Source: Volvox africanus (Eukaryota > Chlorophyta > Chlorophyceae > Chlamydomonadales > Volvocaceae). From it: DNA of 64,000 nt. The position numbers and the translations under genes are program-made. The stretch is from NCBI GenBank assembly GCA_030268105.1, contig BSDZ01000013.1, forward strand, positions 1,407,001 to 1,471,000, in the 5' to 3' direction. The notes under the pieces were generated by a model. That model worked only from the letters and a program-made list of their open reading frames with translations. It ran no database searches and was not told the origin of the DNA. Positions 21,056 through 64,000 of this stretch are shown piece by piece (the first letter of the stretch is position 1; each line of letters opens with the position of its first letter).

Positions 21056-21604
21056 GAATTGCTGCCTACCTGCCTACCTGGCCAGTAGAAAGGAGGTCTC
21101 CAAATGCACCAGAAGGCATGCTCCAGGGGTGGTGCTCGCGTCCAGGGCCAAGCTGCCCAGGTCCTTCTCATCCACCAGTGCTCGTGACGATCCCACGGAC
21201 GCCACCCCATGGATGCCAGCCACCAGGCCACCATGTCCATAGCTGCACGTTTTCGGCTGGGCAGGGATGGTGCAGTGCAGCAATGAGCGCTCAAGGACAG
21301 CACCAGCACCAGCATCACCAGCAATACCAGCAAGGGGGAGGTGGGTGGAAAGACTCAGGGCTGCCACCACCAAGGTAGTGCCACCAATATTCGCTCGGCT
21401 GGCTTGTATATAGGCCATGTAGGTTTTATATAGGCCATGTACTACATAGCCCATCCGGGGCTGCTCTTCGCTGTCGAGTGTGGAGATGCAACAAATGATA
21501 CAACAACTGGTGATTATATTATTAATACTAACGATATTCCTTGTTATTTACAACGAAAAAACGAGGTACGATTTAGCGGTGTTTTCCGTTAGAGGACGAG
21601 GCTT

Positions 21605-21639
21605 GCGCCCACCATCGGAAATGTTTCTGCGTGTATAGA
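21605..21639 (+). promoter_or_regulatory. U3 promoter: upstream sequence element and TATA-like box (unit 1)
   Basis: GCGCCCACCATCG (21605-21617) resembles the plant snRNA upstream sequence element RTCCCACATCG with one extra base. TATAGA (21634-21639) starts 29 bases before the predicted U3 5' end. In plants a shorter USE-TATA spacing marks pol III transcription of U6 and U3; the short 16-base gap here fits that type. The same elements lie at the same offset in every unit. Confidence 0.75.
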
Positions 21640-21662
21640 TCGCTGTTTGGTTGACACTGAGC

Positions 21663-21895
21663 ATGACCATGCTTGAACAGGATCTGTTCTATAGGTCATA
21701 CACTTGTCTGTATTCTCTAAATCAGACAAGCTCCTCAACCCAGACGAAGACAGAGAGTCTCGGTGCCTGAGCGCAACGTATGGCCGCAGTGGCCGTGCCG
21801 CTGGCACGGACGCGCGGCTCTGGATGAACGTCCCGCCGAGCCTCATTCCGCCGGCAGGGATGGCGCGCGAGACATTCAGATGGGTTCTCAGCCAC
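21663..21895 (+). ncRNA. U3: U3 small nucleolar RNA, copy 1
   Basis: U3 guides early cleavages of pre-rRNA in the nucleolar processome by pairing with the 5' external spacer and 18S rRNA. GAACAGGATCTGTTCTATAG (21675-21694) is the hallmark box A/A' of plant U3. It lies in a 5' hairpin closed by ATGACC/GGTCAT. A second hairpin has arms CTTGTCTG (21703) and CAGACAAG (21723). Then follow a C'-like box AGACGA (21742), box B CCTGAGCGC (21766), the hairpin CCGTGCC-GCT-GGCACGG (21793), a box C-like GGATGA (21822) and a box D-like CAGA (21877). AACCCA (21737) pairs with TGGGTT (21881) to close the C'/D motif. Length about 233 nt fits green algal U3. The 5' end is set by analogy with plant U3. This copy has T at 21704, C at 21745 and G at 21943. 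Confidence 0.92.
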
Positions 21896-21904
21896 TTTTG
21901 TTTT
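21896..21904 (+). terminator. Pol III terminator of U3 (unit 1)
   Basis: TTTTGTTTT directly follows the predicted U3 3' end. Runs of four or more T end pol III transcription. The same sequence is found at this offset in all units. Confidence 0.75.
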
Positions 21905-22108
21905 CATAAACTATTGTTTAAATTACAAAGTCTTCTCCAAAAGTACAGGACGAAATGCCTGTAGTGTACCCTTTCCTGACAGACAGACAACCAAGCTGCG
22001 AGCTTGGGAGCAAGGGAAATCTCTTCACGGGAAATGCATGTCATCCTGCTGTCTCGTACCTATCTATCTGTGTTGCTGCATTTTGCGTTCTTCCTTTGGA
22101 TCTTATAT

Positions 22109-22197
22109 CTTCGGTGTAGAAGTTGAGAGCCGCAAAGGCCTCTCGAGATGCTGACAGGGTGCTTCTGCACCTTTGGTATTGTGCTGGGTGCTAATAC
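22109..22197 (+). other. Cluster of four short hairpins downstream of U3 (unit 1)
   Basis: In sequence: CTTC-GGTGTA-GAAG; GAGAGCC-GCAAA-GGCCTCTC (one bulge); AGGGTGC-TTCT-GCACCTT (one wobble pair); GTATT...AATAC. They lie about 210-300 bases after U3 and recur in every unit. I cannot assign them to a known RNA class, and no promoter is evident. Confidence 0.35.
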
Positions 22198-22942
22198 GTA
22201 ACCATATGCTAACATCTATATTATTGCTGGGCCGTTCATGTACGACTACTACATTCCAAGCATGCAAACAACAGCAAAGCAGTACACGGATGTAAACATG
22301 TTCTGGGGCGGGTTGCGGCTGGCTGCGGTTCAGAAGCAAGAACAGGGTCAGGCTGGAACGGGCATGCAGCGGGGCCCGGACGTCCTCTGACGGGCACGCA
22401 GCAGGCCTGGGTCCCACCTGGCCAAAACGCACTAACAGCGACGCCGTGTTCCAGTTAGCCCATGGCACTGGCCATGGCCGATCCGCTGCTGTCGTGTGCA
22501 CCCCTCCAACTTCATTTTTCCGTGTGCGGCTTCTGATGTTGGTAACATTACACCGCACAAACGGTATAGGACGCCCTTGAAGTCAATCGGTTCAACATTC
22601 GCAAAAAAGGGGTACTGTGTCGTGTCACACACCCAATCGTCTTATCACCTAACTTCTGGAAACGACGACCATCTCATCGAATGCCCACAAACGGATGACT
22701 AGTTGGTGAGGACATCGTCACATCCTGATCACGGTTTTGTGGGCTGGGGCAGGCGACAATGCAGTATTGGGGGAGGCAGCACGTGGGGCTCAAACCTCGG
22801 CTGCTGGTCGTAAGACCTGTCGTATAACCGTACAAATTGATGTAGGAGCACGGAAGGGATGGTACATACACAGAAATGGTACATACACAGTGCCAGGCAG
22901 AAAGCACAGCCCTCTCTCCCTCTCTCCTCCTCTCTCACGTAA

Positions 22943-23035
22943 ACACAGACACACAGACACACAGACACACAGACGCACAGACGCACAGACGCACAGACGC
23001 ACAGACGCACAGACGCACAGACGCACAGACGCACA
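22943..23035 (+). repeat. 8-bp minisatellite of the array unit (unit 1)
   Basis: Four ACACAGAC copies are followed by a run of GACGCACA units: 8 in this unit. Other units carry 10 or 11, and units 1 and 3 carry 8. This accounts for every length difference between units. Confidence 0.95.
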
Positions 23036-23936
23036 TGTGCAATGAATGGGAGCAAGCAGTAGTCGCAGCAGCAGCAGCAGAAGTAGCAGAACGTGCCACA
23101 TGAACATGCCTTGGGCAAAGGACCACAAGTGCCAGTAGCTCCAAACACTCCCCAACAGATGCCTGAAGCCACTGCTCTCTCACACCCCGCGACAGGCGTA
23201 TTTCCTACACCTACACCCATGCTTGTGCGTAATCCTCTCTGGCGCAGTTATAGTCTGGGCTCCATTTAGTCAGCCCTGTTTTTTTCCACCAGCCTTTGCG
23301 TGCCTACTTGCTGCCTACTTTCTGCCTACGAATTGCTGCCTACCTGCCTACCTGGCCAGTAGAAAGGAGGTCTCCAAATGCACCAGAAGGCATGCTCCAG
23401 GGGTGGTGCTCGCGTCCAGGGCCAAGCTGCCCAGGTCCTTCTCATCCACCAGTGCTCGTGACGATCCCACGGACGCCACCCCATGGATGCCAGCCACCAG
23501 GCCACCATGTCCATAGCTGCACGTTTTCGGCTGGGCAGGGATGGTGCAGTGCAGCAATGAGCGCTCAAGGACAGCACCAGCACCAGCATCACCAGCAATA
23601 CCAGCAAGGGGGAGGTGGGTGGAAAGACTCAGGGCTGCCACCACCAAGGTAGTGCCACCAATATTCGCTCGGCTGGCTTGTATATAGGCCATGTAGGTTT
23701 TATATAGGCCATGTACTACATAGCCCATCCGGGGCTGCTCTTCGCTGTCGAGTGTGGAGATGCAACAAATGATACAACAACTGGTGATTATATTATTAAT
23801 ACTAACGATATTCCTTGTTATTTACAACGAAAAAACGAGGTACGATTTAGCGGTGTTTTCCGTTAGAGGACGAGGCTTGCGCCCACCATCGGAAATGTTT
23901 CTGCGTGTATAGATCGCTGTTTGGTTGACACTGAGC

Positions 23937-24169
23937 ATGACCATGCTTGAACAGGATCTGTTCTATAGGTCATACACTTGTCTGTATTCTCTAAATCAGA
24001 CAAGCTCCTCAACCCAGATGAAGACAGAGAGTCTCGGTGCCTGAGCGCAACGTATGGCCGCAGTGGCCGTGCCGCTGGCACGGACGCGCGGCTCTGGATG
24101 AACGTCCCGCCGAGCCTCATTCCGCCGGCAGGGATGGCGCGCGAGACATTCAGATGGGTTCTCAGCCAC
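23937..24169 (+). ncRNA. U3: U3 snoRNA, copy 2
   Basis: Unit 2. T in helix 1b as in copy 1, but the C'-like box reads AGATGA instead of AGACGA. Downstream base G at the 21943-equivalent site. Confidence 0.9.
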
Positions 24170-26226
24170 TTTTGTTTTCATAAACTATTGTTTAAATTAC
24201 AAAGTCTTCTCCAAAAGTACAGGACGAAATGCCTGTAGTGTACCCTTTCCTGACAGACAGACAACCAAGCTGCGAGCTTGGGAGCAAGGGAAATCTCTTC
24301 ACGGGAAATGCATGTCATCCTGCTGTCTCGTACCTATCTATCTGTGTTGCTGCATTTTGCGTTCTTCCTTTGGATCTTATATCTTCGGTGTAGAAGTTGA
24401 GAGCCGCAAAGGCCTCTCGAGATGCTGACAGGGTGCTTCTGCACCTTTGGTATTGTGCTGGGTGCTAATACGTAACCATATGCTAACACCTATATTATTG
24501 CTGGGCCGTTCATGTACGACTACTACATTCCAAGCATGCAAACAACAGCAAAGCAGTACACGGATGTAAACATGTTCTGGGGCGGGTTGCGGCTGGCTGC
24601 GGTTCAGAAGCAAGAACAGGGTCAGGCTGGAACGGGCATGCAGCGGGGCCCGGACGTCCTCTGACGGGCACGCAGCAGGCCTGGGTCCCACCTGGCCAAA
24701 ACGCACTAACAGCGACGCCGTGTTCCAGTTAGCCCATGGCACTGGCCATGGCCGATCCGCTGCTGTCGTGTGCACCCCTCCAACTTCATTTTTCCGTGTG
24801 CGGCTTCTGATGTTGGTAACATTACACCGCACAAACGGTATAGGACGCCCTTGAAGTCAATCGGTTCAACATTCGCAAAAAAGGGGTACTGTGTCGTGTC
24901 ACACACCCAATCGTCTTATCACCTAACTTCTGGAAACGACGACCATCTCATCGAATGCCCACAAACGGATGACTAGTTGGTGAGGACATCGTCACATCCT
25001 GATCACGGTTTTGTGGGCTGGGGCAGGCGACAATGCAGTATTGGGGGAGGCAGCACGTGGGGCTCAAACCTCGGCTGCTGGTCGTAAGACCTGTCGTATA
25101 ACCGTACAAATTGATGTAGGAGCACGGAAGGGATGGTACATACACAGAAATGGTACATACACAGTGCCAGGCAGAAAGCACAGCCCTCTCTCCCTCTCTC
25201 CTCCTCTCTCACGTAAACACAGACACACAGACACACAGACACACAGACGCACAGACGCACAGACGCACAGACGCACAGACGCACAGACGCACAGACGCAC
25301 AGACGCACAGACGCACAGACGCACATGTGCAATGAATGGGAGCAAGCAGTAGTCGCAGCAGCAGCAGCAGAAGTAGCAGAACGTGCCACATGAACATGCC
25401 TTGGGCAAAGGACCACAAGTGCCAGTAGCTCCAAACACTCCCCAACAGATGCCTGAAGCCACTGCTCTCTCACACCCCGCGACAGGCGTATTTCCTACAC
25501 CTACACCCATGCTTGTGCGTAATCCTCTCTGGCGCAGTTATAGTCTGGGCTCCATTTAGTCAGCCCTGTTTTTTTCCACCAGCCTTTGCGTGCCTACTTG
25601 CTGCCTACTTTCTGCCTACGAATTGCTGCCTACCTGCCTACCTGGCCAGTAGAAAGGAGGTCTCCAAATGCACCAGAAGGCATGCTCCAGGGGTGGTGCT
25701 CGCGTCCAGGGCCAAGCTGCCCAGGTCCTTCTCATCCACCAGTGCTCGTGACGATCCCACGGACGCCACCCCATGGATGCCAGCCACCAGGCCACCATGT
25801 CCATAGCTGCACGTTTTCGGCTGGGCAGGGATGGTGCAGTGCAGCAATGAGCGCTCAAGGACAGCACCAGCACCAGCATCACCAGCAATACCAGCAAGGG
25901 GGAGGTGGGTGGAAAGACTCAGGGCTGCCACCACCAAGGTAGTGCCACCAATATTCGCTCGGCTGGCTTGTATATAGGCCATGTAGGTTTTATATAGGCC
26001 ATGTACTACATAGCCCATCCGGGGCTGCTCTTCGCTGTCGAGTGTGGAGATGCAACAAATGATACAACAACTGGTGATTATATTATTAATACTAACGATA
26101 TTCCTTGTTATTTACAACGAAAAAACGAGGTACGATTTAGCGGTGTTTTCCGTTAGAGGACGAGGCTTGCGCCCACCATCGGAAATGTTTCTGCGTGTAT
26201 AGATCGCTGTTTGGTTGACACTGAGC

Positions 26227-26459
26227 ATGACCATGCTTGAACAGGATCTGTTCTATAGGTCATACACCTGTCTGTATTCTCTAAATCAGACAAGCTCCTC
26301 AACCCAGATGAAGACAGAGAGTCTCGGTGCCTGAGCGCAACGTATGGCCGCAGTGGCCGTGCCGCTGGCACGGACGCGCGGCTCTGGATGAACGTCCCGC
26401 CGAGCCTCATTCCGCCGGCAGGGATGGCGCGCGAGACATTCAGATGGGTTCTCAGCCAC
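26227..26459 (+). ncRNA. U3: U3 snoRNA, copy 3
   Basis: Unit 3. C in helix 1b (C-A mismatch) combined with the AGATGA form of the C' box, a combination found in no other copy. Confidence 0.9.
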
Positions 26460-28500
26460 TTTTGTTTTCATAAACTATTGTTTAAATTACAAAGTCTTCT
26501 CCAAAAGTACAGGACGAAATGCCTGTAGTGTACCCTTTCCTGACAGACAGACAACCAAGCTGCGAGCTTGGGAGCAAGGGAAATCTCTTCACGGGAAATG
26601 CATGTCATCCTGCTGTCTCGTACCTATCTATCTGTGTTGCTGCATTTTGCGTTCTTCCTTTGGATCTTATATCTTCGGTGTAGAAGTTGAGAGCCGCAAA
26701 GGCCTCTCGAGATGCTGACAGGGTGCTTCTGCACCTTTGGTATTGTGCTGGGTGCTAATACGTAACCATATGCTAACATCTATATTATTGCTGGGCCGTT
26801 CATGTACGACTACTACATTCCAAGCATGCAAACAACAGCAAAGCAGTACACGGATGTAAACATGTTCTGGGGCGGGTTGCGGCTGGCTGCGGTTCAGAAG
26901 CAAGAACAGGGTCAGGCTGGAACGGGCATGCAGCGGGGCCCGGACGTCCTCTGACGGGCACGCAGCAGGCCTGGGTCCCACCTGGCCAAAACGCACTAAC
27001 AGCGACGCCGTGTTCCAGTTAGCCCATGGCACTGGCCATGGCCGATCCGCTGCTGTCGTGTGCACCCCTCCAACTTCATTTTTCCGTGTGCGGCTTCTGA
27101 TGTTGGTAACATTACACCGCACAAACGGTATAGGACGCCCTTGAAGTCAATCGGTTCAACATTCGCAAAAAAGGGGTACTGTGTCGTGTCACACACCCAA
27201 TCGTCTTATCACCTAACTTCTGGAAACGACGACCATCTCATCGAATGCCCACAAACGGATGACTAGTTGGTGAGGACATCGTCACATCCTGATCACGGTT
27301 TTGTGGGCTGGGGCAGGCGACAATGCAGTATTGGGGGAGGCAGCACGTGGGGCTCAAACCTCGGCTGCTGGTCGTAAGACCTGTCGTATAACCGTACAAA
27401 TTGATGTAGGAGCACGGAAGGGATGGTACATACACAGAAATGGTACATACACAGTGCCAGGCAGAAAGCACAGCCCTCTCTCCCTCTCTCCTCCTCTCTC
27501 ACGTAAACACAGACACACAGACACACAGACACACAGACGCACAGACGCACAGACGCACAGACGCACAGACGCACAGACGCACAGACGCACAGACGCACAT
27601 GTGCAATGAATGGGAGCAAGCAGTAGTCGCAGCAGCAGCAGCAGAAGTAGCAGAACGTGCCACATGAACATGCCTTGGGCAAAGGACCACAAGTGCCAGT
27701 AGCTCCAAACACTCCCCAACAGATGCCTGAAGCCACTGCTCTCTCACACCCCGCGACAGGCGTATTTCCTACACCTACACCCATGCTTGTGCGTAATCCT
27801 CTCTGGCGCAGTTATAGTCTGGGCTCCATTTAGTCAGCCCTGTTTTTTTCCACCAGCCTTTGCGTGCCTACTTGCTGCCTACTTTCTGCCTACGAATTGC
27901 TGCCTACCTGCCTACCTGGCCAGTAGAAAGGAGGTCTCCAAATGCACCAGAAGGCATGCTCCAGGGGTGGTGCTCGCGTCCAGGGCCAAGCTGCCCAGGT
28001 CCTTCTCATCCACCAGTGCTCGTGACGATCCCACGGACGCCACCCCATGGATGCCAGCCACCAGGCCACCATGTCCATAGCTGCACGTTTTCGGCTGGGC
28101 AGGGATGGTGCAGTGCAGCAATGAGCGCTCAAGGACAGCACCAGCACCAGCATCACCAGCAATACCAGCAAGGGGGAGGTGGGTGGAAAGACTCAGGGCT
28201 GCCACCACCAAGGTAGTGCCACCAATATTCGCTCGGCTGGCTTGTATATAGGCCATGTAGGTTTTATATAGGCCATGTACTACATAGCCCATCCGGGGCT
28301 GCTCTTCGCTGTCGAGTGTGGAGATGCAACAAATGATACAACAACTGGTGATTATATTATTAATACTAACGATATTCCTTGTTATTTACAACGAAAAAAC
28401 GAGGTACGATTTAGCGGTGTTTTCCGTTAGAGGACGAGGCTTGCGCCCACCATCGGAAATGTTTCTGCGTGTATAGATCGCTGTTTGGTTGACACTGAGC

Positions 28501-28733
28501 ATGACCATGCTTGAACAGGATCTGTTCTATAGGTCATACACTTGTCTGTATTCTCTAAATCAGACAAGCTCCTCAACCCAGACGAAGACAGAGAGTCTCG
28601 GTGCCTGAGCGCAACGTATGGCCGCAGTGGCCGTGCCGCTGGCACGGACGCGCGGCTCTGGATGAACGTCCCGCCGAGCCTCATTCCGCCGGCAGGGATG
28701 GCGCGCGAGACATTCAGATGGGTTCTCAGCCAC
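28501..28733 (+). ncRNA. U3: U3 snoRNA, copy 4
   Basis: Unit 4. T in helix 1b, AGACGA C' box. First unit with C at the 21943-equivalent site downstream. Confidence 0.9.
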
Positions 28734-30790
28734 TTTTGTTTTCATAAACTATTGTTTAAATTACAAAGTCTTCTCCAAAACTACAGGACGAAATGCCTGT
28801 AGTGTACCCTTTCCTGACAGACAGACAACCAAGCTGCGAGCTTGGGAGCAAGGGAAATCTCTTCACGGGAAATGCATGTCATCCTGCTGTCTCGTACCTA
28901 TCTATCTGTGTTGCTGCATTTTGCGTTCTTCCTTTGGATCTTATATCTTCGGTGTAGAAGTTGAGAGCCGCAAAGGCCTCTCGAGATGCTGACAGGGTGC
29001 TTCTGCACCTTTGGTATTGTGCTGGGTGCTAATACGTAACCATATGCTAACACCTATATTATTGCTGGGCCGTTCATGTACGACTACTACATTCCAAGCA
29101 TGCAAACAACAGCAAAGCAGTACACGGATGTAAACATGTTCTGGGGCGGGTTGCGGCTGGCTGCGGTTCAGAAGCAAGAACAGGGTCAGGCTGGAACGGG
29201 CATGCAGCGGGGCCCGGACGTCCTCTGACGGGCACGCAGCAGGCCTGGGTCCCACCTGGCCAAAACGCACTAACAGCGACGCCGTGTTCCAGTTAGCCCA
29301 TGGCACTGGCCATGGCCGATCCGCTGCTGTCGTGTGCACCCCTCCAACTTCATTTTTCCGTGTGCGGCTTCTGATGTTGGTAACATTACACCGCACAAAC
29401 GGTATAGGACGCCCTTGAAGTCAATCGGTTCAACATTCGCAAAAAAGGGGTACTGTGTCGTGTCACACACCCAATCGTCTTATCACCTAACTTCTGGAAA
29501 CGACGACCATCTCATCGAATGCCCACAAACGGATGACTAGTTGGTGAGGACATCGTCACATCCTGATCACGGTTTTGTGGGCTGGGGCAGGCGACAATGC
29601 AGTATTGGGGGAGGCAGCACGTGGGGCTCAAACCTCGGCTGCTGGTCGTAAGACCTGTCGTATAACCGTACAAATTGATGTAGGAGCACGGAAGGGATGG
29701 TACATACACAGAAATGGTACATACACAGTGCCAGGCAGAAAGCACAGCCCTCTCTCCCTCTCTCCTCCTCTCTCACGTAAACACAGACACACAGACACAC
29801 AGACACACAGACGCACAGACGCACAGACGCACAGACGCACAGACGCACAGACGCACAGACGCACAGACGCACAGACGCACAGACGCACATGTGCAATGAA
29901 TGGGAGCAAGCAGTAGTCGCAGCAGCAGCAGCAGAAGTAGCAGAACGTGCCACATGAACATGCCTTGGGCAAAGGACCACAAGTGCCAGTAGCTCCAAAC
30001 ACTCCCCAACAGATGCCTGAAGCCACTGCTCTCTCACACCCCGCGACAGGCGTATTTCCTACACCTACACCCATGCTTGTGCGTAATCCTCTCTGGCGCA
30101 GTTATAGTCTGGGCTCCATTTAGTCAGCCCTGTTTTTTTCCACCAGCCTTTGCGTGCCTACTTGCTGCCTACTTTCTGCCTACGAATTGCTGCCTACCTG
30201 CCTACCTGGCCAGTAGAAAGGAGGTCTCCAAATGCACCAGAAGGCATGCTCCAGGGGTGGTGCTCGCGTCCAGGGCCAAGCTGCCCAGGTCCTTCTCATC
30301 CACCAGTGCTCGTGACGATCCCACGGACGCCACCCCATGGATGCCAGCCACCAGGCCACCATGTCCATAGCTGCACGTTTTCGGCTGGGCAGGGATGGTG
30401 CAGTGCAGCAATGAGCGCTCAAGGACAGCACCAGCACCAGCATCACCAGCAATACCAGCAAGGGGGAGGTGGGTGGAAAGACTCAGGGCTGCCACCACCA
30501 AGGTAGTGCCACCAATATTCGCTCGGCTGGCTTGTATATAGGCCATGTAGGTTTTATATAGGCCATGTACTACATAGCCCATCCGGGGCTGCTCTTCGCT
30601 GTCGAGTGTGGAGATGCAACAAATGATACAACAACTGGTGATTATATTATTAATACTAACGATATTCCTTGTTATTTACAACGAAAAAACGAGGTACGAT
30701 TTAGCGGTGTTTTCCGTTAGAGGACGAGGCTTGCGCCCACCATCGGAAATGTTTCTGCGTGTATAGATCGCTGTTTGGTTGACACTGAGC

Positions 30791-31023
30791 ATGACCATGC
30801 TTGAACAGGATCTGTTCTATAGGTCATACACTTGTCTGTATTCTCTAAATCAGACAAGCTCCTCAACCCAGACGAAGACAGAGAGTCTCGGTGCCTGAGC
30901 GCAACGTATGGCCGCAGTGGCCGTGCCGCTGGCACGGACGCGCGGCTCTGGATGAACGTCCCGCCGAGCCTCATTCCGCCGGCAGGGATGGCGCGCGAGA
31001 CATTCAGATGGGTTCTCAGCCAC
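30791..31023 (+). ncRNA. U3: U3 snoRNA, copy 5
   Basis: Unit 5, RNA identical to copy 4. The unit has 11 minisatellite copies. This is the last copy with the fully paired helix 1b. Confidence 0.9.
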
Positions 31024-33088: not shown

Positions 33089-33321
33089 ATGACCATGCTT
33101 GAACAGGATCTGTTCTATAGGTCATACACCTGTCTGTATTCTCTAAATCAGACAAGCTCCTCAACCCAGACGAAGACAGAGAGTCTCGGTGCCTGAGCGC
33201 AACGTATGGCCGCAGTGGCCGTGCCGCTGGCACGGACGCGCGGCTCTGGATGAACGTCCCGCCGAGCCTCATTCCGCCGGCAGGGATGGCGCGCGAGACA
33301 TTCAGATGGGTTCTCAGCCAC
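33089..33321 (+). ncRNA. U3: U3 snoRNA, copy 6
   Basis: Unit 6. First of the run of copies with C in helix 1b and AGACGA C' box, the majority form. Confidence 0.9.
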
Positions 33322-35378: not shown

Positions 35379-35611
35379 ATGACCATGCTTGAACAGGATC
35401 TGTTCTATAGGTCATACACCTGTCTGTATTCTCTAAATCAGACAAGCTCCTCAACCCAGACGAAGACAGAGAGTCTCGGTGCCTGAGCGCAACGTATGGC
35501 CGCAGTGGCCGTGCCGCTGGCACGGACGCGCGGCTCTGGATGAACGTCCCGCCGAGCCTCATTCCGCCGGCAGGGATGGCGCGCGAGACATTCAGATGGG
35601 TTCTCAGCCAC
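35379..35611 (+). ncRNA. U3: U3 snoRNA, copy 7
   Basis: Unit 7, majority RNA form. Confidence 0.9.
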
Positions 35612-37668: not shown

Positions 37669-37901
37669 ATGACCATGCTTGAACAGGATCTGTTCTATAG
37701 GTCATACACCTGTCTGTATTCTCTAAATCAGACAAGCTCCTCAACCCAGACGAAGACAGAGAGTCTCGGTGCCTGAGCGCAACGTATGGCCGCAGTGGCC
37801 GTGCCGCTGGCACGGACGCGCGGCTCTGGATGAACGTCCCGCCGAGCCTCATTCCGCCGGCAGGGATGGCGCGCGAGACATTCAGATGGGTTCTCAGCCA
37901 C
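37669..37901 (+). ncRNA. U3: U3 snoRNA, copy 8
   Basis: Unit 8, majority RNA form. Confidence 0.9.
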
Positions 37902-39958: not shown

Positions 39959-40191
39959 ATGACCATGCTTGAACAGGATCTGTTCTATAGGTCATACACC
40001 TGTCTGTATTCTCTAAATCAGACAAGCTCCTCAACCCAGACGAAGACAGAGAGTCTCGGTGCCTGAGCGCAACGTATGGCCGCAGTGGCCGTGCCGCTGG
40101 CACGGACGCGCGGCTCTGGATGAACGTCCCGCCGAGCCTCATTCCGCCGGCAGGGATGGCGCGCGAGACATTCAGATGGGTTCTCAGCCAC
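39959..40191 (+). ncRNA. U3: U3 snoRNA, copy 9
   Basis: Unit 9, majority RNA form. The unit has C instead of T at the 22215-equivalent site, as in units 2, 4, 5 and 6. Confidence 0.9.
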
Positions 40192-42248: not shown

Positions 42249-42481
42249 ATGACCATGCTTGAACAGGATCTGTTCTATAGGTCATACACCTGTCTGTATT
42301 CTCTAAATCAGACAAGCTCCTCAACCCAGACGAAGACAGAGAGTCTCGGTGCCTGAGCGCAACGTATGGCCGCAGTGGCCGTGCCGCTGGCACGGACGCG
42401 CGGCTCTGGATGAACGTCCCGCCGAGCCTCATTCCGCCGGCAGGGATGGCGCGCGAGACATTCAGATGGGTTCTCAGCCAC
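42249..42481 (+). ncRNA. U3: U3 snoRNA, copy 10
   Basis: Unit 10, majority RNA form. The promoter has GACAATGAGC instead of GACACTGAGC, a change six bases before the predicted 5' end. Confidence 0.9.
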
Positions 42482-44538: not shown

Positions 44539-44771
44539 ATGACCATGCTTGAACAGGATCTGTTCTATAGGTCATACACCTGTCTGTATTCTCTAAATCA
44601 GACAAGCTCCTCAACCCAGACGAAGACAGAGAGTCTCGGTGCCTGAGCGCAACGTATGGCCGCAGTGGCCGTGCCGCTGGCACGGACGCGCGGCTCTGGA
44701 TGAACGTCCCGCCGAGCCTCATTCCGCCGGCAGGGATGGCGCGCGAGACATTCAGATGGGTTCTCAGCCAC
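44539..44771 (+). ncRNA. U3: U3 snoRNA, copy 11
   Basis: Unit 11, majority RNA form and common promoter; 11 minisatellite copies in the unit. Confidence 0.9.
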
Positions 44772-46836: not shown

Positions 46837-47069
46837 ATGACCATGCTTGAACAGGATCTGTTCTATAGGTCATACACCTGTCTGTATTCTCTAAATCAGA
46901 CAAGCTCCTCAACCCAGACGAAGACAGAGAGTCTCGGTGCCTGAGCGCAACGTATGGCCGCAGTGGCCGTGCCGCTGGCACGGACGCGCGGCTCTGGATG
47001 AACGTCCCGCCGAGCCTCATTCCGCCGGCAGGGATGGCGCGCGAGACATTCAGATGGGTTCTCAGCCAC
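46837..47069 (+). ncRNA. U3: U3 snoRNA, copy 12
   Basis: Unit 12, majority RNA form with the same promoter variant as copy 10; 11 minisatellite copies. Confidence 0.9.
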
Positions 47070-49134: not shown

Positions 49135-49367
49135 ATGACCATGCTTGAACAGGATCTGTTCTATAGGTCATACACCTGTCTGTATTCTCTAAATCAGACA
49201 AGCTCCTCAACCCAGACGAAGACAGAGAGTCTCGGTGCCTGAGCGCAACGTATGGCCGCAGTGGCCGTGCCGCTGGCACGGACGCGCGGCTCTGGATGAA
49301 CGTCCCGCCGAGCCTCATTCCGCCGGCAGGGATGGCGCGCGAGACATTCAGATGGGTTCTCAGCCAC
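49135..49367 (+). ncRNA. U3: U3 snoRNA, copy 13
   Basis: Unit 13, majority RNA form. Confidence 0.9.
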
Positions 49368-51424: not shown

Positions 51425-51657
51425 ATGACCATGCTTGAACAGGATCTGTTCTATAGGTCATACACCTGTCTGTATTCTCTAAATCAGACAAGCTCCTCAA
51501 CCCAGACGAAGACAGAGAGTCTCGGTGCCTGAGCGCAACGTATGGCCGCAGTGGCCGTGCCGCTGGCACGGACGCGCGGCTCTGGATGAACGTCCCGCCG
51601 AGCCTCATTCCGCCGGCAGGGATGGCGCGCGAGACATTCAGATGGGTTCTCAGCCAC
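51425..51657 (+). ncRNA. U3: U3 snoRNA, copy 14
   Basis: Unit 14, majority RNA form. Confidence 0.9.
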
Positions 51658-53714: not shown

Positions 53715-53947
53715 ATGACCATGCTTGAACAGGATCTGTTCTATAGGTCATACACCTGTCTGTATTCTCTAAATCAGACAAGCTCCTCAACCCAGACGAA
53801 GACAGAGAGTCTCGGTGCCTGAGCGCAACGTATGGCCGCAGTGGCCGTGCCGCTGGCACGGACGCGCGGCTCTGGATGAACGTCCCGCCGAGCCTCATTC
53901 CGCCGGCAGGGATGGCGCGCGAGACATTCAGATGGGTTCTCAGCCAC
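53715..53947 (+). ncRNA. U3: U3 snoRNA, copy 15
   Basis: Unit 15, majority RNA form. Confidence 0.9.
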
Positions 53948-56004
53948 TTTTGTTTTCATAAACTATTGTTTAAATTACAAAGTCTTCTCCAAAACTACAG
54001 GACGAAATGCCTGTAGTGTACCCTTTCCTGACAGACAGACAACCAAGCTGCGAGCTTGGGAGCAAGGGAAATCTCTTCACGGGAAATGCATGTCATCCTG
54101 CTGTCTCGTACCTATCTATCTGTGTTGCTGCATTTTGCGTTCTTCCTTTGGATCTTATATCTTCGGTGTAGAAGTTGAGAGCCGCAAAGGCCTCTCGAGA
54201 TGCTGACAGGGTGCTTCTGCACCTTTGGTATTGTGCTGGGTGCTAATACGTAACCATATGCTAACATCTATATTATTGCTGGGCCGTTCATGTACGACTA
54301 CTACATTCCAAGCATGCAAACAACAGCAAAGCAGTACACGGATGTAAACATGTTCTGGGGCGGGTTGCGGCTGGCTGCGGTTCAGAAGCAAGAACAGGGT
54401 CAGGCTGGAACGGGCATGCAGCGGGGCCCGGACGTCCTCTGACGGGCACGCAGCAGGCCTGGGTCCCACCTGGCCAAAACGCACTAACAGCGACGCCGTG
54501 TTCCAGTTAGCCCATGGCACTGGCCATGGCCGATCCGCTGCTGTCGTGTGCACCCCTCCAACTTCATTTTTCCGTGTGCGGCTTCTGATGTTGGTAACAT
54601 TACACCGCACAAACGGTATAGGACGCCCTTGAAGTCAATCGGTTCAACATTCGCAAAAAAGGGGTACTGTGTCGTGTCACACACCCAATCGTCTTATCAC
54701 CTAACTTCTGGAAACGACGACCATCTCATCGAATGCCCACAAACGGATGACTAGTTGGTGAGGACATCGTCACATCCTGATCACGGTTTTGTGGGCTGGG
54801 GCAGGCGACAATGCAGTATTGGGGGAGGCAGCACGTGGGGCTCAAACCTCGGCTGCTGGTCGTAAGACCTGTCGTATAACCGTACAAATTGATGTAGGAG
54901 CACGGAAGGGATGGTACATACACAGAAATGGTACATACACAGTGCCAGGCAGAAAGCACAGCCCTCTCTCCCTCTCTCCTCCTCTCTCACGTAAACACAG
55001 ACACACAGACACACAGACACACAGACGCACAGACGCACAGACGCACAGACGCACAGACGCACAGACGCACAGACGCACAGACGCACAGACGCACAGACGC
55101 ACATGTGCAATGAATGGGAGCAAGCAGTAGTCGCAGCAGCAGCAGCAGAAGTAGCAGAACGTGCCACATGAACATGCCTTGGGCAAAGGACCACAAGTGC
55201 CAGTAGCTCCAAACACTCCCCAACAGATGCCTGAAGCCACTGCTCTCTCACACCCCGCGACAGGCGTATTTCCTACACCTACACCCATGCTTGTGCGTAA
55301 TCCTCTCTGGCGCAGTTATAGTCTGGGCTCCATTTAGTCAGCCCTGTTTTTTTCCACCAGCCTTTGCGTGCCTACTTGCTGCCTACTTTCTGCCTACGAA
55401 TTGCTGCCTACCTGCCTACCTGGCCAGTAGAAAGGAGGTCTCCAAATGCACCAGAAGGCATGCTCCAGGGGTGGTGCTCGCGTCCAGGGCCAAGCTGCCC
55501 AGGTCCTTCTCATCCACCAGTGCTCGTGACGATCCCACGGACGCCACCCCATGGATGCCAGCCACCAGGCCACCATGTCCATAGCTGCACGTTTTCGGCT
55601 GGGCAGGGATGGTGCAGTGCAGCAATGAGCGCTCAAGGACAGCACCAGCACCAGCATCACCAGCAATACCAGCAAGGGGGAGGTGGGTGGAAAGACTCAG
55701 GGCTGCCACCACCAAGGTAGTGCCACCAATATTCGCTCGGCTGGCTTGTATATAGGCCATGTAGGTTTTATATAGGCCATGTACTACATAGCCCATCCGG
55801 GGCTGCTCTTCGCTGTCGAGTGTGGAGATGCAACAAATGATACAACAACTGGTGATTATATTATTAATACTAACGATATTCCTTGTTATTTACAACGAAA
55901 AAACGAGGTACGATTTAGCGGTGTTTTCCGTTAGAGGACGAGGCTTGCGCCCACCATCGGAAATGTTTCTGCGTGTATAGATCGCTGTTTGGTTGACACT
56001 GAGC

Positions 56005-56237
56005 ATGACCATGCTTGAACAGGATCTGTTCTATAGGTCATACACCTGTCTGTATTCTCTAAATCAGACAAGCTCCTCAACCCAGACGAAGACAGAGAGT
56101 CTCGGTGCCTGAGCGCAACGTATGGCCGCAGTGGCCGTGCCGCTGGCACGGACGCGCGGCTCTGGATGAACGTCCCGCCGAGCCTCATTCCGCCGGCAGG
56201 GATGGCGCGCGAGACATTCAGATGGGTTCTCAGCCAC
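56005..56237 (+). ncRNA. U3: U3 snoRNA, copy 16
   Basis: Unit 16, majority RNA form. Confidence 0.9.
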
Positions 56238-58294
56238 TTTTGTTTTCATAAACTATTGTTTAAATTACAAAGTCTTCTCCAAAACTACAGGACGAAATGC
56301 CTGTAGTGTACCCTTTCCTGACAGACAGACAACCAAGCTGCGAGCTTGGGAGCAAGGGAAATCTCTTCACGGGAAATGCATGTCATCCTGCTGTCTCGTA
56401 CCTATCTATCTGTGTTGCTGCATTTTGCGTTCTTCCTTTGGATCTTATATCTTCGGTGTAGAAGTTGAGAGCCGCAAAGGCCTCTCGAGATGCTGACAGG
56501 GTGCTTCTGCACCTTTGGTATTGTGCTGGGTGCTAATACGTAACCATATGCTAACATCTATATTATTGCTGGGCCGTTCATGTACGACTACTACATTCCA
56601 AGCATGCAAACAACAGCAAAGCAGTACACGGATGTAAACATGTTCTGGGGCGGGTTGCGGCTGGCTGCGGTTCAGAAGCAAGAACAGGGTCAGGCTGGAA
56701 CGGGCATGCAGCGGGGCCCGGACGTCCTCTGACGGGCACGCAGCAGGCCTGGGTCCCACCTGGCCAAAACGCACTAACAGCGACGCCGTGTTCCAGTTAG
56801 CCCATGGCACTGGCCATGGCCGATCCGCTGCTGTCGTGTGCACCCCTCCAACTTCATTTTTCCGTGTGCGGCTTCTGATGTTGGTAACATTACACCGCAC
56901 AAACGGTATAGGACGCCCTTGAAGTCAATCGGTTCAACATTCGCAAAAAAGGGGTACTGTGTCGTGTCACACACCCAATCGTCTTATCACCTAACTTCTG
57001 GAAACGACGACCATCTCATCGAATGCCCACAAACGGATGACTAGTTGGTGAGGACATCGTCACATCCTGATCACGGTTTTGTGGGCTGGGGCAGGCGACA
57101 ATGCAGTATTGGGGGAGGCAGCACGTGGGGCTCAAACCTCGGCTGCTGGTCGTAAGACCTGTCGTATAACCGTACAAATTGATGTAGGAGCACGGAAGGG
57201 ATGGTACATACACAGAAATGGTACATACACAGTGCCAGGCAGAAAGCACAGCCCTCTCTCCCTCTCTCCTCCTCTCTCACGTAAACACAGACACACAGAC
57301 ACACAGACACACAGACGCACAGACGCACAGACGCACAGACGCACAGACGCACAGACGCACAGACGCACAGACGCACAGACGCACAGACGCACATGTGCAA
57401 TGAATGGGAGCAAGCAGTAGTCGCAGCAGCAGCAGCAGAAGTAGCAGAACGTGCCACATGAACATGCCTTGGGCAAAGGACCACAAGTGCCAGTAGCTCC
57501 AAACACTCCCCAACAGATGCCTGAAGCCACTGCTCTCTCACACCCCGCGACAGGCGTATTTCCTACACCTACACCCATGCTTGTGCGTAATCCTCTCTGG
57601 CGCAGTTATAGTCTGGGCTCCATTTAGTCAGCCCTGTTTTTTTCCACCAGCCTTTGCGTGCCTACTTGCTGCCTACTTTCTGCCTACGAATTGCTGCCTA
57701 CCTGCCTACCTGGCCAGTAGAAAGGAGGTCTCCAAATGCACCAGAAGGCATGCTCCAGGGGTGGTGCTCGCGTCCAGGGCCAAGCTGCCCAGGTCCTTCT
57801 CATCCACCAGTGCTCGTGACGATCCCACGGACGCCACCCCATGGATGCCAGCCACCAGGCCACCATGTCCATAGCTGCACGTTTTCGGCTGGGCAGGGAT
57901 GGTGCAGTGCAGCAATGAGCGCTCAAGGACAGCACCAGCACCAGCATCACCAGCAATACCAGCAAGGGGGAGGTGGGTGGAAAGACTCAGGGCTGCCACC
58001 ACCAAGGTAGTGCCACCAATATTCGCTCGGCTGGCTTGTATATAGGCCATGTAGGTTTTATATAGGCCATGTACTACATAGCCCATCCGGGGCTGCTCTT
58101 CGCTGTCGAGTGTGGAGATGCAACAAATGATACAACAACTGGTGATTATATTATTAATACTAACGATATTCCTTGTTATTTACAACGAAAAAACGAGGTA
58201 CGATTTAGCGGTGTTTTCCGTTAGAGGACGAGGCTTGCGCCCACCATCGGAAATGTTTCTGCGTGTATAGATCGCTGTTTGGTTGACACTGAGC

Positions 58295-58527
58295 ATGACC
58301 ATGCTTGAACAGGATCTGTTCTATAGGTCATACACCTGTCTGTATTCTCTAAATCAGACAAGCTCCTCAACCCAGACGAAGACAGAGAGTCTCGGTGCCT
58401 GAGCGCAACGTATGGCCGCAGTGGCCGTGCCGCTGGCACGGACGCGCGGCTCTGGATGAACGTCCCGCCGAGCCTCATTCCGCCGGCAGGGATGGCGCGC
58501 GAGACATTCAGATGGGTTCTCAGCCAC
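58295..58527 (+). ncRNA. U3: U3 snoRNA, copy 17
   Basis: Unit 17, majority RNA form. Confidence 0.9.
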
Positions 58528-60584
58528 TTTTGTTTTCATAAACTATTGTTTAAATTACAAAGTCTTCTCCAAAACTACAGGACGAAATGCCTGTAGTGTA
58601 CCCTTTCCTGACAGACAGACAACCAAGCTGCGAGCTTGGGAGCAAGGGAAATCTCTTCACGGGAAATGCATGTCATCCTGCTGTCTCGTACCTATCTATC
58701 TGTGTTGCTGCATTTTGCGTTCTTCCTTTGGATCTTATATCTTCGGTGTAGAAGTTGAGAGCCGCAAAGGCCTCTCGAGATGCTGACAGGGTGCTTCTGC
58801 ACCTTTGGTATTGTGCTGGGTGCTAATACGTAACCATATGCTAACATCTATATTATTGCTGGGCCGTTCATGTACGACTACTACATTCCAAGCATGCAAA
58901 CAACAGCAAAGCAGTACACGGATGTAAACATGTTCTGGGGCGGGTTGCGGCTGGCTGCGGTTCAGAAGCAAGAACAGGGTCAGGCTGGAACGGGCATGCA
59001 GCGGGGCCCGGACGTCCTCTGACGGGCACGCAGCAGGCCTGGGTCCCACCTGGCCAAAACGCACTAACAGCGACGCCGTGTTCCAGTTAGCCCATGGCAC
59101 TGGCCATGGCCGATCCGCTGCTGTCGTGTGCACCCCTCCAACTTCATTTTTCCGTGTGCGGCTTCTGATGTTGGTAACATTACACCGCACAAACGGTATA
59201 GGACGCCCTTGAAGTCAATCGGTTCAACATTCGCAAAAAAGGGGTACTGTGTCGTGTCACACACCCAATCGTCTTATCACCTAACTTCTGGAAACGACGA
59301 CCATCTCATCGAATGCCCACAAACGGATGACTAGTTGGTGAGGACATCGTCACATCCTGATCACGGTTTTGTGGGCTGGGGCAGGCGACAATGCAGTATT
59401 GGGGGAGGCAGCACGTGGGGCTCAAACCTCGGCTGCTGGTCGTAAGACCTGTCGTATAACCGTACAAATTGATGTAGGAGCACGGAAGGGATGGTACATA
59501 CACAGAAATGGTACATACACAGTGCCAGGCAGAAAGCACAGCCCTCTCTCCCTCTCTCCTCCTCTCTCACGTAAACACAGACACACAGACACACAGACAC
59601 ACAGACGCACAGACGCACAGACGCACAGACGCACAGACGCACAGACGCACAGACGCACAGACGCACAGACGCACAGACGCACATGTGCAATGAATGGGAG
59701 CAAGCAGTAGTCGCAGCAGCAGCAGCAGAAGTAGCAGAACGTGCCACATGAACATGCCTTGGGCAAAGGACCACAAGTGCCAGTAGCTCCAAACACTCCC
59801 CAACAGATGCCTGAAGCCACTGCTCTCTCACACCCCGCGACAGGCGTATTTCCTACACCTACACCCATGCTTGTGCGTAATCCTCTCTGGCGCAGTTATA
59901 GTCTGGGCTCCATTTAGTCAGCCCTGTTTTTTTCCACCAGCCTTTGCGTGCCTACTTGCTGCCTACTTTCTGCCTACGAATTGCTGCCTACCTGCCTACC
60001 TGGCCAGTAGAAAGGAGGTCTCCAAATGCACCAGAAGGCATGCTCCAGGGGTGGTGCTCGCGTCCAGGGCCAAGCTGCCCAGGTCCTTCTCATCCACCAG
60101 TGCTCGTGACGATCCCACGGACGCCACCCCATGGATGCCAGCCACCAGGCCACCATGTCCATAGCTGCACGTTTTCGGCTGGGCAGGGATGGTGCAGTGC
60201 AGCAATGAGCGCTCAAGGACAGCACCAGCACCAGCATCACCAGCAATACCAGCAAGGGGGAGGTGGGTGGAAAGACTCAGGGCTGCCACCACCAAGGTAG
60301 TGCCACCAATATTCGCTCGGCTGGCTTGTATATAGGCCATGTAGGTTTTATATAGGCCATGTACTACATAGCCCATCCGGGGCTGCTCTTCGCTGTCGAG
60401 TGTGGAGATGCAACAAATGATACAACAACTGGTGATTATATTATTAATACTAACGATATTCCTTGTTATTTACAACGAAAAAACGAGGTACGATTTAGCG
60501 GTGTTTTCCGTTAGAGGACGAGGCTTGCGCCCACCATCGGAAATGTTTCTGCGTGTATAGATCGCTGTTTGGTTGACACTGAGC

Positions 60585-60817
60585 ATGACCATGCTTGAAC
60601 AGGATCTGTTCTATAGGTCATACACCTGTCTGTATTCTCTAAATCAGACAAGCTCCTCAACCCAGACGAAGACAGAGAGTCTCGGTGCCTGAGCGCAACG
60701 TATGGCCGCAGTGGCCGTGCCGCTGGCACGGACGCGCGGCTCTGGATGAACGTCCCGCCGAGCCTCATTCCGCCGGCAGGGATGGCGCGCGAGACATTCA
60801 GATGGGTTCTCAGCCAC
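60585..60817 (+). ncRNA. U3: U3 snoRNA, copy 18
   Basis: Unit 18, majority RNA form. Confidence 0.9.
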
Positions 60818-62874
60818 TTTTGTTTTCATAAACTATTGTTTAAATTACAAAGTCTTCTCCAAAACTACAGGACGAAATGCCTGTAGTGTACCCTTTCCTG
60901 ACAGACAGACAACCAAGCTGCGAGCTTGGGAGCAAGGGAAATCTCTTCACGGGAAATGCATGTCATCCTGCTGTCTCGTACCTATCTATCTGTGTTGCTG
61001 CATTTTGCGTTCTTCCTTTGGATCTTATATCTTCGGTGTAGAAGTTGAGAGCCGCAAAGGCCTCTCGAGATGCTGACAGGGTGCTTCTGCACCTTTGGTA
61101 TTGTGCTGGGTGCTAATACGTAACCATATGCTAACATCTATATTATTGCTGGGCCGTTCATGTACGACTACTACATTCCAAGCATGCAAACAACAGCAAA
61201 GCAGTACACGGATGTAAACATGTTCTGGGGCGGGTTGCGGCTGGCTGCGGTTCAGAAGCAAGAACAGGGTCAGGCTGGAACGGGCATGCAGCGGGGCCCG
61301 GACGTCCTCTGACGGGCACGCAGCAGGCCTGGGTCCCACCTGGCCAAAACGCACTAACAGCGACGCCGTGTTCCAGTTAGCCCATGGCACTGGCCATGGC
61401 CGATCCGCTGCTGTCGTGTGCACCCCTCCAACTTCATTTTTCCGTGTGCGGCTTCTGATGTTGGTAACATTACACCGCACAAACGGTATAGGACGCCCTT
61501 GAAGTCAATCGGTTCAACATTCGCAAAAAAGGGGTACTGTGTCGTGTCACACACCCAATCGTCTTATCACCTAACTTCTGGAAACGACGACCATCTCATC
61601 GAATGCCCACAAACGGATGACTAGTTGGTGAGGACATCGTCACATCCTGATCACGGTTTTGTGGGCTGGGGCAGGCGACAATGCAGTATTGGGGGAGGCA
61701 GCACGTGGGGCTCAAACCTCGGCTGCTGGTCGTAAGACCTGTCGTATAACCGTACAAATTGATGTAGGAGCACGGAAGGGATGGTACATACACAGAAATG
61801 GTACATACACAGTGCCAGGCAGAAAGCACAGCCCTCTCTCCCTCTCTCCTCCTCTCTCACGTAAACACAGACACACAGACACACAGACACACAGACGCAC
61901 AGACGCACAGACGCACAGACGCACAGACGCACAGACGCACAGACGCACAGACGCACAGACGCACAGACGCACATGTGCAATGAATGGGAGCAAGCAGTAG
62001 TCGCAGCAGCAGCAGCAGAAGTAGCAGAACGTGCCACATGAACATGCCTTGGGCAAAGGACCACAAGTGCCAGTAGCTCCAAACACTCCCCAACAGATGC
62101 CTGAAGCCACTGCTCTCTCACACCCCGCGACAGGCGTATTTCCTACACCTACACCCATGCTTGTGCGTAATCCTCTCTGGCGCAGTTATAGTCTGGGCTC
62201 CATTTAGTCAGCCCTGTTTTTTTCCACCAGCCTTTGCGTGCCTACTTGCTGCCTACTTTCTGCCTACGAATTGCTGCCTACCTGCCTACCTGGCCAGTAG
62301 AAAGGAGGTCTCCAAATGCACCAGAAGGCATGCTCCAGGGGTGGTGCTCGCGTCCAGGGCCAAGCTGCCCAGGTCCTTCTCATCCACCAGTGCTCGTGAC
62401 GATCCCACGGACGCCACCCCATGGATGCCAGCCACCAGGCCACCATGTCCATAGCTGCACGTTTTCGGCTGGGCAGGGATGGTGCAGTGCAGCAATGAGC
62501 GCTCAAGGACAGCACCAGCACCAGCATCACCAGCAATACCAGCAAGGGGGAGGTGGGTGGAAAGACTCAGGGCTGCCACCACCAAGGTAGTGCCACCAAT
62601 ATTCGCTCGGCTGGCTTGTATATAGGCCATGTAGGTTTTATATAGGCCATGTACTACATAGCCCATCCGGGGCTGCTCTTCGCTGTCGAGTGTGGAGATG
62701 CAACAAATGATACAACAACTGGTGATTATATTATTAATACTAACGATATTCCTTGTTATTTACAACGAAAAAACGAGGTACGATTTAGCGGTGTTTTCCG
62801 TTAGAGGACGAGGCTTGCGCCCACCATCGGAAATGTTTCTGCGTGTATAGATCGCTGTTTGGTTGACACTGAGC

Positions 62875-63107
62875 ATGACCATGCTTGAACAGGATCTGTT
62901 CTATAGGTCATACACCTGTCTGTATTCTCTAAATCAGACAAGCTCCTCAACCCAGACGAAGACAGAGAGTCTCGGTGCCTGAGCGCAACGTATGGCCGCA
63001 GTGGCCGTGCCGCTGGCACGGACGCGCGGCTCTGGATGAACGTCCCGCCGAGCCTCATTCCGCCGGCAGGGATGGCGCGCGAGACATTCAGATGGGTTCT
63101 CAGCCAC
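62875..63107 (+). ncRNA. U3: U3 snoRNA, copy 19
   Basis: Unit 19 (cut by the window edge after the gene), majority RNA form. The unit carries two private G-to-A changes downstream, at 63456 and 63813. Confidence 0.9.
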
Positions 63108-64000
63108 TTTTGTTTTCATAAACTATTGTTTAAATTACAAAGTCTTCTCCAAAACTACAGGACGAAATGCCTGTAGTGTACCCTTTCCTGACAGACAGAC
63201 AACCAAGCTGCGAGCTTGGGAGCAAGGGAAATCTCTTCACGGGAAATGCATGTCATCCTGCTGTCTCGTACCTATCTATCTGTGTTGCTGCATTTTGCGT
63301 TCTTCCTTTGGATCTTATATCTTCGGTGTAGAAGTTGAGAGCCGCAAAGGCCTCTCGAGATGCTGACAGGGTGCTTCTGCACCTTTGGTATTGTGCTGGG
63401 TGCTAATACGTAACCATATGCTAACATCTATATTATTGCTGGGCCGTTCATGTACAACTACTACATTCCAAGCATGCAAACAACAGCAAAGCAGTACACG
63501 GATGTAAACATGTTCTGGGGCGGGTTGCGGCTGGCTGCGGTTCAGAAGCAAGAACAGGGTCAGGCTGGAACGGGCATGCAGCGGGGCCCGGACGTCCTCT
63601 GACGGGCACGCAGCAGGCCTGGGTCCCACCTGGCCAAAACGCACTAACAGCGACGCCGTGTTCCAGTTAGCCCATGGCACTGGCCATGGCCGATCCGCTG
63701 CTGTCGTGTGCACCCCTCCAACTTCATTTTTCCGTGTGCGGCTTCTGATGTTGGTAACATTACACCGCACAAACGGTATAGGACGCCCTTGAAGTCAATC
63801 GGTTCAACATTCACAAAAAAGGGGTACTGTGTCGTGTCACACACCCAATCGTCTTATCACCTAACTTCTGGAAACGACGACCATCTCATCGAATGCCCAC
63901 AAACGGATGACTAGTTGGTGAGGACATCGTCACATCCTGATCACGGTTTTGTGGGCTGGGGCAGGCGACAATGCAGTATTGGGGGAGGCAGCACGTGGGG

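Follow-up and report, generated by a model that had tools for sequence, protein, structure and literature searches.

We have identified a tandem array of U3 snoRNA genes that is most likely the main source of U3 RNA in this green alga. The array is real, bounded and homogeneous, and it is composed of complete U3 genes whose predicted promoters and terminators are of the RNA polymerase III (Pol III) type. Its anatomy, its boundaries, a promoter element in common with U1 and U2 genes, and a homogeneity in which variants occur mostly in the end units were observed directly, and the genes look like working Pol III-type genes that are kept alike by unequal exchange. U1, U2, U5, U6 and 5S genes are arrayed as well; thus, arrays are a broader feature of this genome and not a device that links U3 to rRNA.

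The window, by which we mean the whole stretch of 64,000 nt that was analyzed, corresponds to C13:1407001-1471000, C13 being a 4.93-Mb contig of a 141-Mb genome assembled in 126 contigs. Covariance searches of the window with cmscan at the gathering thresholds of Rfam returned 19 full-length matches to Plant_U3 (RF01847; positions 1-221 of 221) and no other family, with scores of 112.6-115.2 bits against a gathering threshold of 80 and E-values from 6e-30 to 4e-29. All 19 genes lie on the plus strand, at 21663..21886 (gene 1, 114.2 bits), 23937..24160 (gene 2), 26227..26450 (gene 3), 28501..28724 (gene 4), 30791..31014 (gene 5), 33089..33312 (gene 6), 35379..35602 (gene 7), 37669..37892 (gene 8), 39959..40182 (gene 9), 42249..42472 (gene 10), 44539..44762 (gene 11), 46837..47060 (gene 12), 49135..49358 (gene 13), 51425..51648 (gene 14), 53715..53938 (gene 15), 56005..56228 (gene 16), 58295..58518 (gene 17), 60585..60808 (gene 18) and 62875..63098 (gene 19). 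The sequence-only reading had described an rDNA-like, homogeneous, head-to-tail array of at least 19 complete U3 genes that starts at 21056 and has no right end in the window, and it was borne out in each respect checked. The in-window part (21056..64000, plus strand) consists of a left partial unit and the 19 genes; followed along the contig, the array runs on for ~8.45 kb past the window to C13:1479454, so that in this one assembly the whole array holds 23 Plant_U3 matches within 51.4 kb (C13:1428056-1479454). Start-to-start spacing of the genes is 2266, 2274, 2290 or 2298 bp.

The array is located 1.43 Mb into the contig and is flanked on both sides by sequence foreign to the unit, its right end falling inside a short dispersed element that forms part of the unit. 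To the left is a minus-strand kinesin gene (PF00225 in two of the eight ORFs scanned), and to the right, also on the minus strand, is a gene that encodes an NAD-glycerol-3-phosphate dehydrogenase N-terminal domain (above the cut-off in one of three ORFs scanned). The sole further match to the unit in the flanks (C13:1377001-1428055 and 1479455-1498000) is a degraded U3 copy at 1382421.

Each gene has the 5' anatomy of U3. A 20-mer of box A, searched with up to three mismatches, gave 19 matches in the window, all of them exact and on the plus strand, and none in 100 shuffles. GAACAGGATCTGTTCTATAG, from the box A'/A region of the 5' domain, is present in all 23 array genes, and the predicted fold of the RNA includes a 5' closing stem (1-6/32-37), in agreement with the box A and closing stem that had been claimed for every unit. 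The fold has a stability z-score of -2.88, with one of 200 shuffles as stable. The U3 identity proposed earlier stands on full-length covariance matches, with RF01847 the better family and not RF00012, as had been suggested. As defined by Rfam, the RNA ends at 224 nt and is followed by 9 nt up to the first T4, a length that fits the RNA of roughly 233 nt previously anticipated if the transcript reaches the T run. As controls, 14 other genomes were searched for the U3 family, which gave a below-cut-off match in one (Deinobacterium chartae), and a 23-mer of U3 had no matches in viral_contigs.

Upstream element, TATA-like box and T-run terminators had likewise been predicted for every unit, and all were found in 23 of 23. 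The element, CCCACCATCG, lies at -55 and the TATA-like box at -29, with T4 runs downstream; in unit 1 these occupy 21608..21617, 21634..21639 and 21896..21904 of the plus strand, the last being a T4-G-T4 terminator of Pol III type, and all three are identical throughout the array. A gap of 16 nt separates CCCACCATCG from the TATA-like box. This arrangement (CCCACCATCG-N16-TATA) occurs 26 times in the 141 Mb of the genome, compared with once for a reversed-pattern control: 23 sites are in the array, those at C13:646377 and C13:1382647 precede U3 copies elsewhere, and C50:198798 is the remaining one. In order to compare other U-RNA genes, the best-scoring 8 of 22 U6, 8 of 43 U2, 8 of 42 U5 and 8 of 35 U1 loci were inspected. 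Among these best-scoring loci, exact copies of CCCACCATCG were found at -74 in 8/8 U2 and at -73 in 8/8 U1; many of these loci are units of one array, and they represent five independent flanks (three unrelated U1, two unrelated U2). In seven of the best eight U5 loci the element lies at -83 and has a single mismatch. With up to three mismatches allowed, no copy was found within 110 bp upstream of the remaining U5 locus or of the eight U6 genes, which, like those of U3, would be expected to be transcribed by Pol III.

The 22 complete units, when aligned, differ at nine substitution sites and in 32 gapped columns. The gapped columns (alignment positions 1306-1337) all fall in a CACAGACG microsatellite (22944..23035, plus strand, in unit 1), which by pattern count has 9-14 repeats per unit and is the source of the variation in unit length; in unit 19, one of the nine substitutions breaks up the last repeats. 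Outside the microsatellite, 10 of 22 units are identical, and the mean pairwise difference among 21 units (unit 19 excluded) is 1.70 sites, or 0.00078 per bp, with a maximum of 6. Seven of the nine variable sites are confined to units 0-5 or 18-21, and the remaining two affect units 8 and 10 in the middle of the array; unequal exchange would be expected to leave roughly this pattern. Two of the nine sites lie within the 224-bp gene, which makes up about a tenth of the unit. The gene is therefore no less variable than the spacer, and the array offers no evidence that selection acts on it.

The spacer of unit 1 also contains a short dispersed MITE-like element with inverted ends (TGTAGTAGT-like) at 22115..22253 (plus strand). 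A second gene in the unit was considered and rejected: Rfam searches at E-values up to 1 gave only U3, ARAGORN predicted no tRNA in the window, and, of the 18 unit-overlapping ORFs with 60 aa or more, the 10 that were scanned against Pfam had no match at an E-value of 0.01. Separately, TTTTAGGG repeats were noted as 496 overlapping matches of a 40-mer; together with the plant-type U3, they indicate a Chlamydomonas-like green alga.

The array RNAs depart from the Plant_U3 consensus in regions that we take to be boxes B, C, D and C'. The C'/D and B/C regions align to the model, yet box D reads UCAGA where the consensus has UCUGA (its GA is kept), the box B region reads GCGCAA against GCGUGA, and the box C region reads GAUGAACG against GAGGAUCG. 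The presumed C' box is GACGA in 21 of the 23 copies and GAUGA in two. These departures may represent the lineage's own U3 boxes, or all copies may derive from one altered gene.

Further U3 copies occur outside the array, and the most complete of these bears on whether the array is active. The copy at C13:646430 scores 112.5 bits and is identical to the array RNA at 218 of 224 bases, is set in unrelated flanks, has the USE-N16-TATA promoter, and shows the same departures in boxes B, C and D together with GACGA. Its five internal differences from the array RNA (positions 7, 93, 123, 140 and 148) all keep the predicted pairing, for which the chance with random substitutions is ~0.03-0.05. No T4 run follows it within 300 nt. 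A second copy, at C24:1479558 (103 bits), is promoterless; its match begins at U3 base 2 and takes in the array-type 3' trailer, ending at the TTT of the trailer and diverging in the T run. This suggests a reverse-transcribed Pol III transcript of an array-type gene, which would have such an appearance. Of the others, C13:1382421 retains its promoter but is damaged in the 5' domain. With RF00012, this copy and C20:925259 score 38.8 and 36.1 bits, both above the gathering threshold of 34. C13:2956338 is a diverged relative of the unit, located on the array's own contig at a distance of ~1.5 Mb; it shows 89% identity (835/937 columns), and most of box A is absent from it. Four further copies (C20:936069, C116:647258, C109:578375 and C3:6273909) are either partial or degraded.

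The strongest alternative is that the array is a silent or mostly silent satellite, with working U3 coming from the solitary gene at C13:646430 or from an unassembled gene. The lack of any sign of selection on the arrayed gene, the off-consensus boxes B, C and D, and the high score and array-type promoter of C13:646430 would all suit this explanation. The box departures are, however, common to C13:646430 and thus are no indication that the array is dead. Moreover, promoter and terminator are intact in all 23 units, whereas the solitary gene is without a nearby T4 run, and the trailer of the C24 copy, with its stop in the T run, suggests past transcription of an array-type gene. We consider a silent satellite unlikely.

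A genome search for other structural RNAs, in which the copies counted for each family are lower bounds, revealed further arrays on other contigs. U6 is present as at least 16 copies spaced 1708 bp apart on C3; U2 as at least 32 same-strand copies over 95 kb of C22, most commonly 2.3-2.4 kb apart with some larger gaps; U1 as at least 25 copies over 60 kb of C116 (median spacing 2.49 kb); and U5 as at least 26 copies over 83 kb of C122, mostly 2.65-2.95 kb apart, with at least six more on C3 and at least three on C71 at a spacing of 9,877 bp. Among the 47 5S matches listed, 43 are on C30 at distances of 615-627 bp and multiples thereof. U4 is partly arrayed: a single stretch of C5 carries eight of the 16 matches listed, of which the first four are spaced 7,635 bp apart and the other four irregularly. 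Solitary copies of the U1, U2, U5, U6, U4 and 5S families are also present. SRP RNA provides a contrast, as its six matches on C24 are irregularly placed and occur on both strands. A common spacer of the U3 and other arrays was rejected, as the U3 unit had no match at an E-value of 0.01, with the low-complexity filter on, among 36 U6, U2, 5S, U5, U1 and 5.8S loci. The lack of a shared spacer fits independent origins of the arrays.

These arrays weigh against the suggestion, made in the sequence-only reading, that U3 dosage is held in tandem alongside rDNA dosage. In its specific form, the U3 array would co-vary with the nucleolus organizer or sit at it. U3 acts in 18S rRNA processing, and 23 copies are many for U3; even so, spliceosomal U1, U2, U5 and U6 genes are arrayed at similar copy number, 5S genes too form an array, the U3 array lies 1.43 Mb into its contig, and none of the 14 5.8S matches listed is on C13. 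This last point is a weak one, since 14 scattered 5.8S matches imply that rDNA is probably collapsed or missing in the assembly, which weakens any statement on the distance between U3 and rDNA. The idea that the array exists because of a tie to rDNA thus found no support, and we regard a device specific to rDNA as very improbable. Multiplication of a few units by the assembler, to which the 10 identical units might point, is scarcely credible given that microsatellite lengths and the nine sites differ between units in a patterned way and that, within a 4.93-Mb contig, the array is bordered at each end by sequence other than that of the unit.

Considered jointly, these results lead us to hold with good confidence that the array is the main U3 locus. 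One U3 locus would have been amplified locally into the array, with the diverged relative of the unit remaining on the same contig, and each of the 23 near-identical 2.27-2.30-kb units would constitute an independent U3 transcription unit. From the anatomy of the units, we infer that they are expressed and read by Pol III, which would start from the snRNA-type upstream element and TATA-like box and have its transcript ended by the T run. Unequal exchange between units would keep the array homogeneous, and the array would supply U3 RNA in bulk for the processing of 18S rRNA.

Tandem arrays of U1 and U2 genes are known from vertebrates and sea urchins, and of U6 genes from Xenopus. As here, these have one small-RNA gene per unit in near-identical, head-to-tail repeats; in this alga, by contrast, the RNA is U3, and there are further arrays for each of U1, U2, U5 and U6. 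The array also resembles 5S and 45S rDNA in its homogeneous, head-to-tail units of RNA gene and spacer, and differs in its product and in lying on a contig other than those of all the 5.8S (14) and 5S (47) matches listed. The plant upstream sequence element (USE) has the consensus RTCCCACATCG, and in higher plants the spacing between this element and the TATA box sets the polymerase. The array genes agree with plant-type U3 genes (RF01847; USE and TATA, Pol III) in the covariance match, the USE-like CCCACCATCG, the TATA-like box at -29 and the T-run terminator, and differ in the 16 nt from element to TATA, the long array, and the noncanonical B, C and D boxes. The U3 genes examined in plants, trypanosomatids and other protists are given as transcribed by Pol III (PMC2784804), and plant U3 is named as a Pol III gene in work on Ostreococcus (PMC7671301). 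Euglena gracilis is likewise a protist whose genome holds many U3 genes; at least 14 gene variants are reported there, some standing alone and others linked to U5 or tRNA genes, and a search for tandem U3 genes by the authors of that study gave none (PMC2784804). Our own literature search, which was incomplete, found no tandem U3 array, and we do not claim its absence from print.

For this organism, the comparison of U-RNA genes yields a promoter rule, in which CCCACCATCG lies at -73/-74 in U1 and U2 genes and at -55, together with a TATA-like box, in U3 genes. The element is thus 18-19 bp nearer the gene in U3, and this difference in position, along with the TATA-like box, may be how the choice of polymerase is set here. 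The genome-wide habit of arraying is more interesting than the U3 array alone. We tentatively propose, as a possibility short of an even expectation, that most of the structural RNAs searched reside in separate concerted arrays, in which array length would set supply and exchange would keep one sequence, solitary copies being relics or escapees. If true, this would be an snRNA counterpart of rDNA that takes in the U1, U2, U3, U5, U6, 5S and, in part, U4 families, and the U3 and spliceosomal arrays of one genome would offer a clean setting for questions of dose by array length and of homogenization.

Directly to the left of the array of 23 near-identical U3 snoRNA genes lies a minus-strand kinesin gene (window 17011-20228); the array is located on the upstream side of this gene. 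A short dispersed element whose inverted ends resemble TGTAGTAGT occupies window 22115-22253 and the equivalent spot in later array units, and the right end of the array falls inside a copy of it. This element occurs in many further places across the genome, and its core was found in all 11 loci read, with differing flanks. Among the array genes, box C' reads GAUGA in two copies (window 24017-24021 and 26307-26311) versus GACGA in the other 21.

A U3 copy on another contig (C24:1479546-1479780) is without a promoter and ends at its 3' side in the T run of an array-type trailer. It resembles the product of reverse transcription of a Pol III transcript.

Long tandem arrays were also observed elsewhere in the genome for U6, U2, U1, U5 and 5S genes, extending among the matches listed over at least C3:6569162-6594881, C22:49516-145033, C116:523858-583967, C122:149807-233122 and C30:465-45424, respectively. 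The upstream ten-mer CCCACCATCG accompanies the U1, U2, U3 and most U5 loci read, whereas the eight U6 loci read (L037-L044, the best-scoring of 22 matches) have a TATA-like stretch near -30 and no recognisable CCCACCATCG within 110 bp upstream. In a whole-genome pattern search, the sole CCCACCATCG-N16-TATA not preceding a known U3 copy was C50:198798-198827, which may mark another Pol III small-RNA gene.
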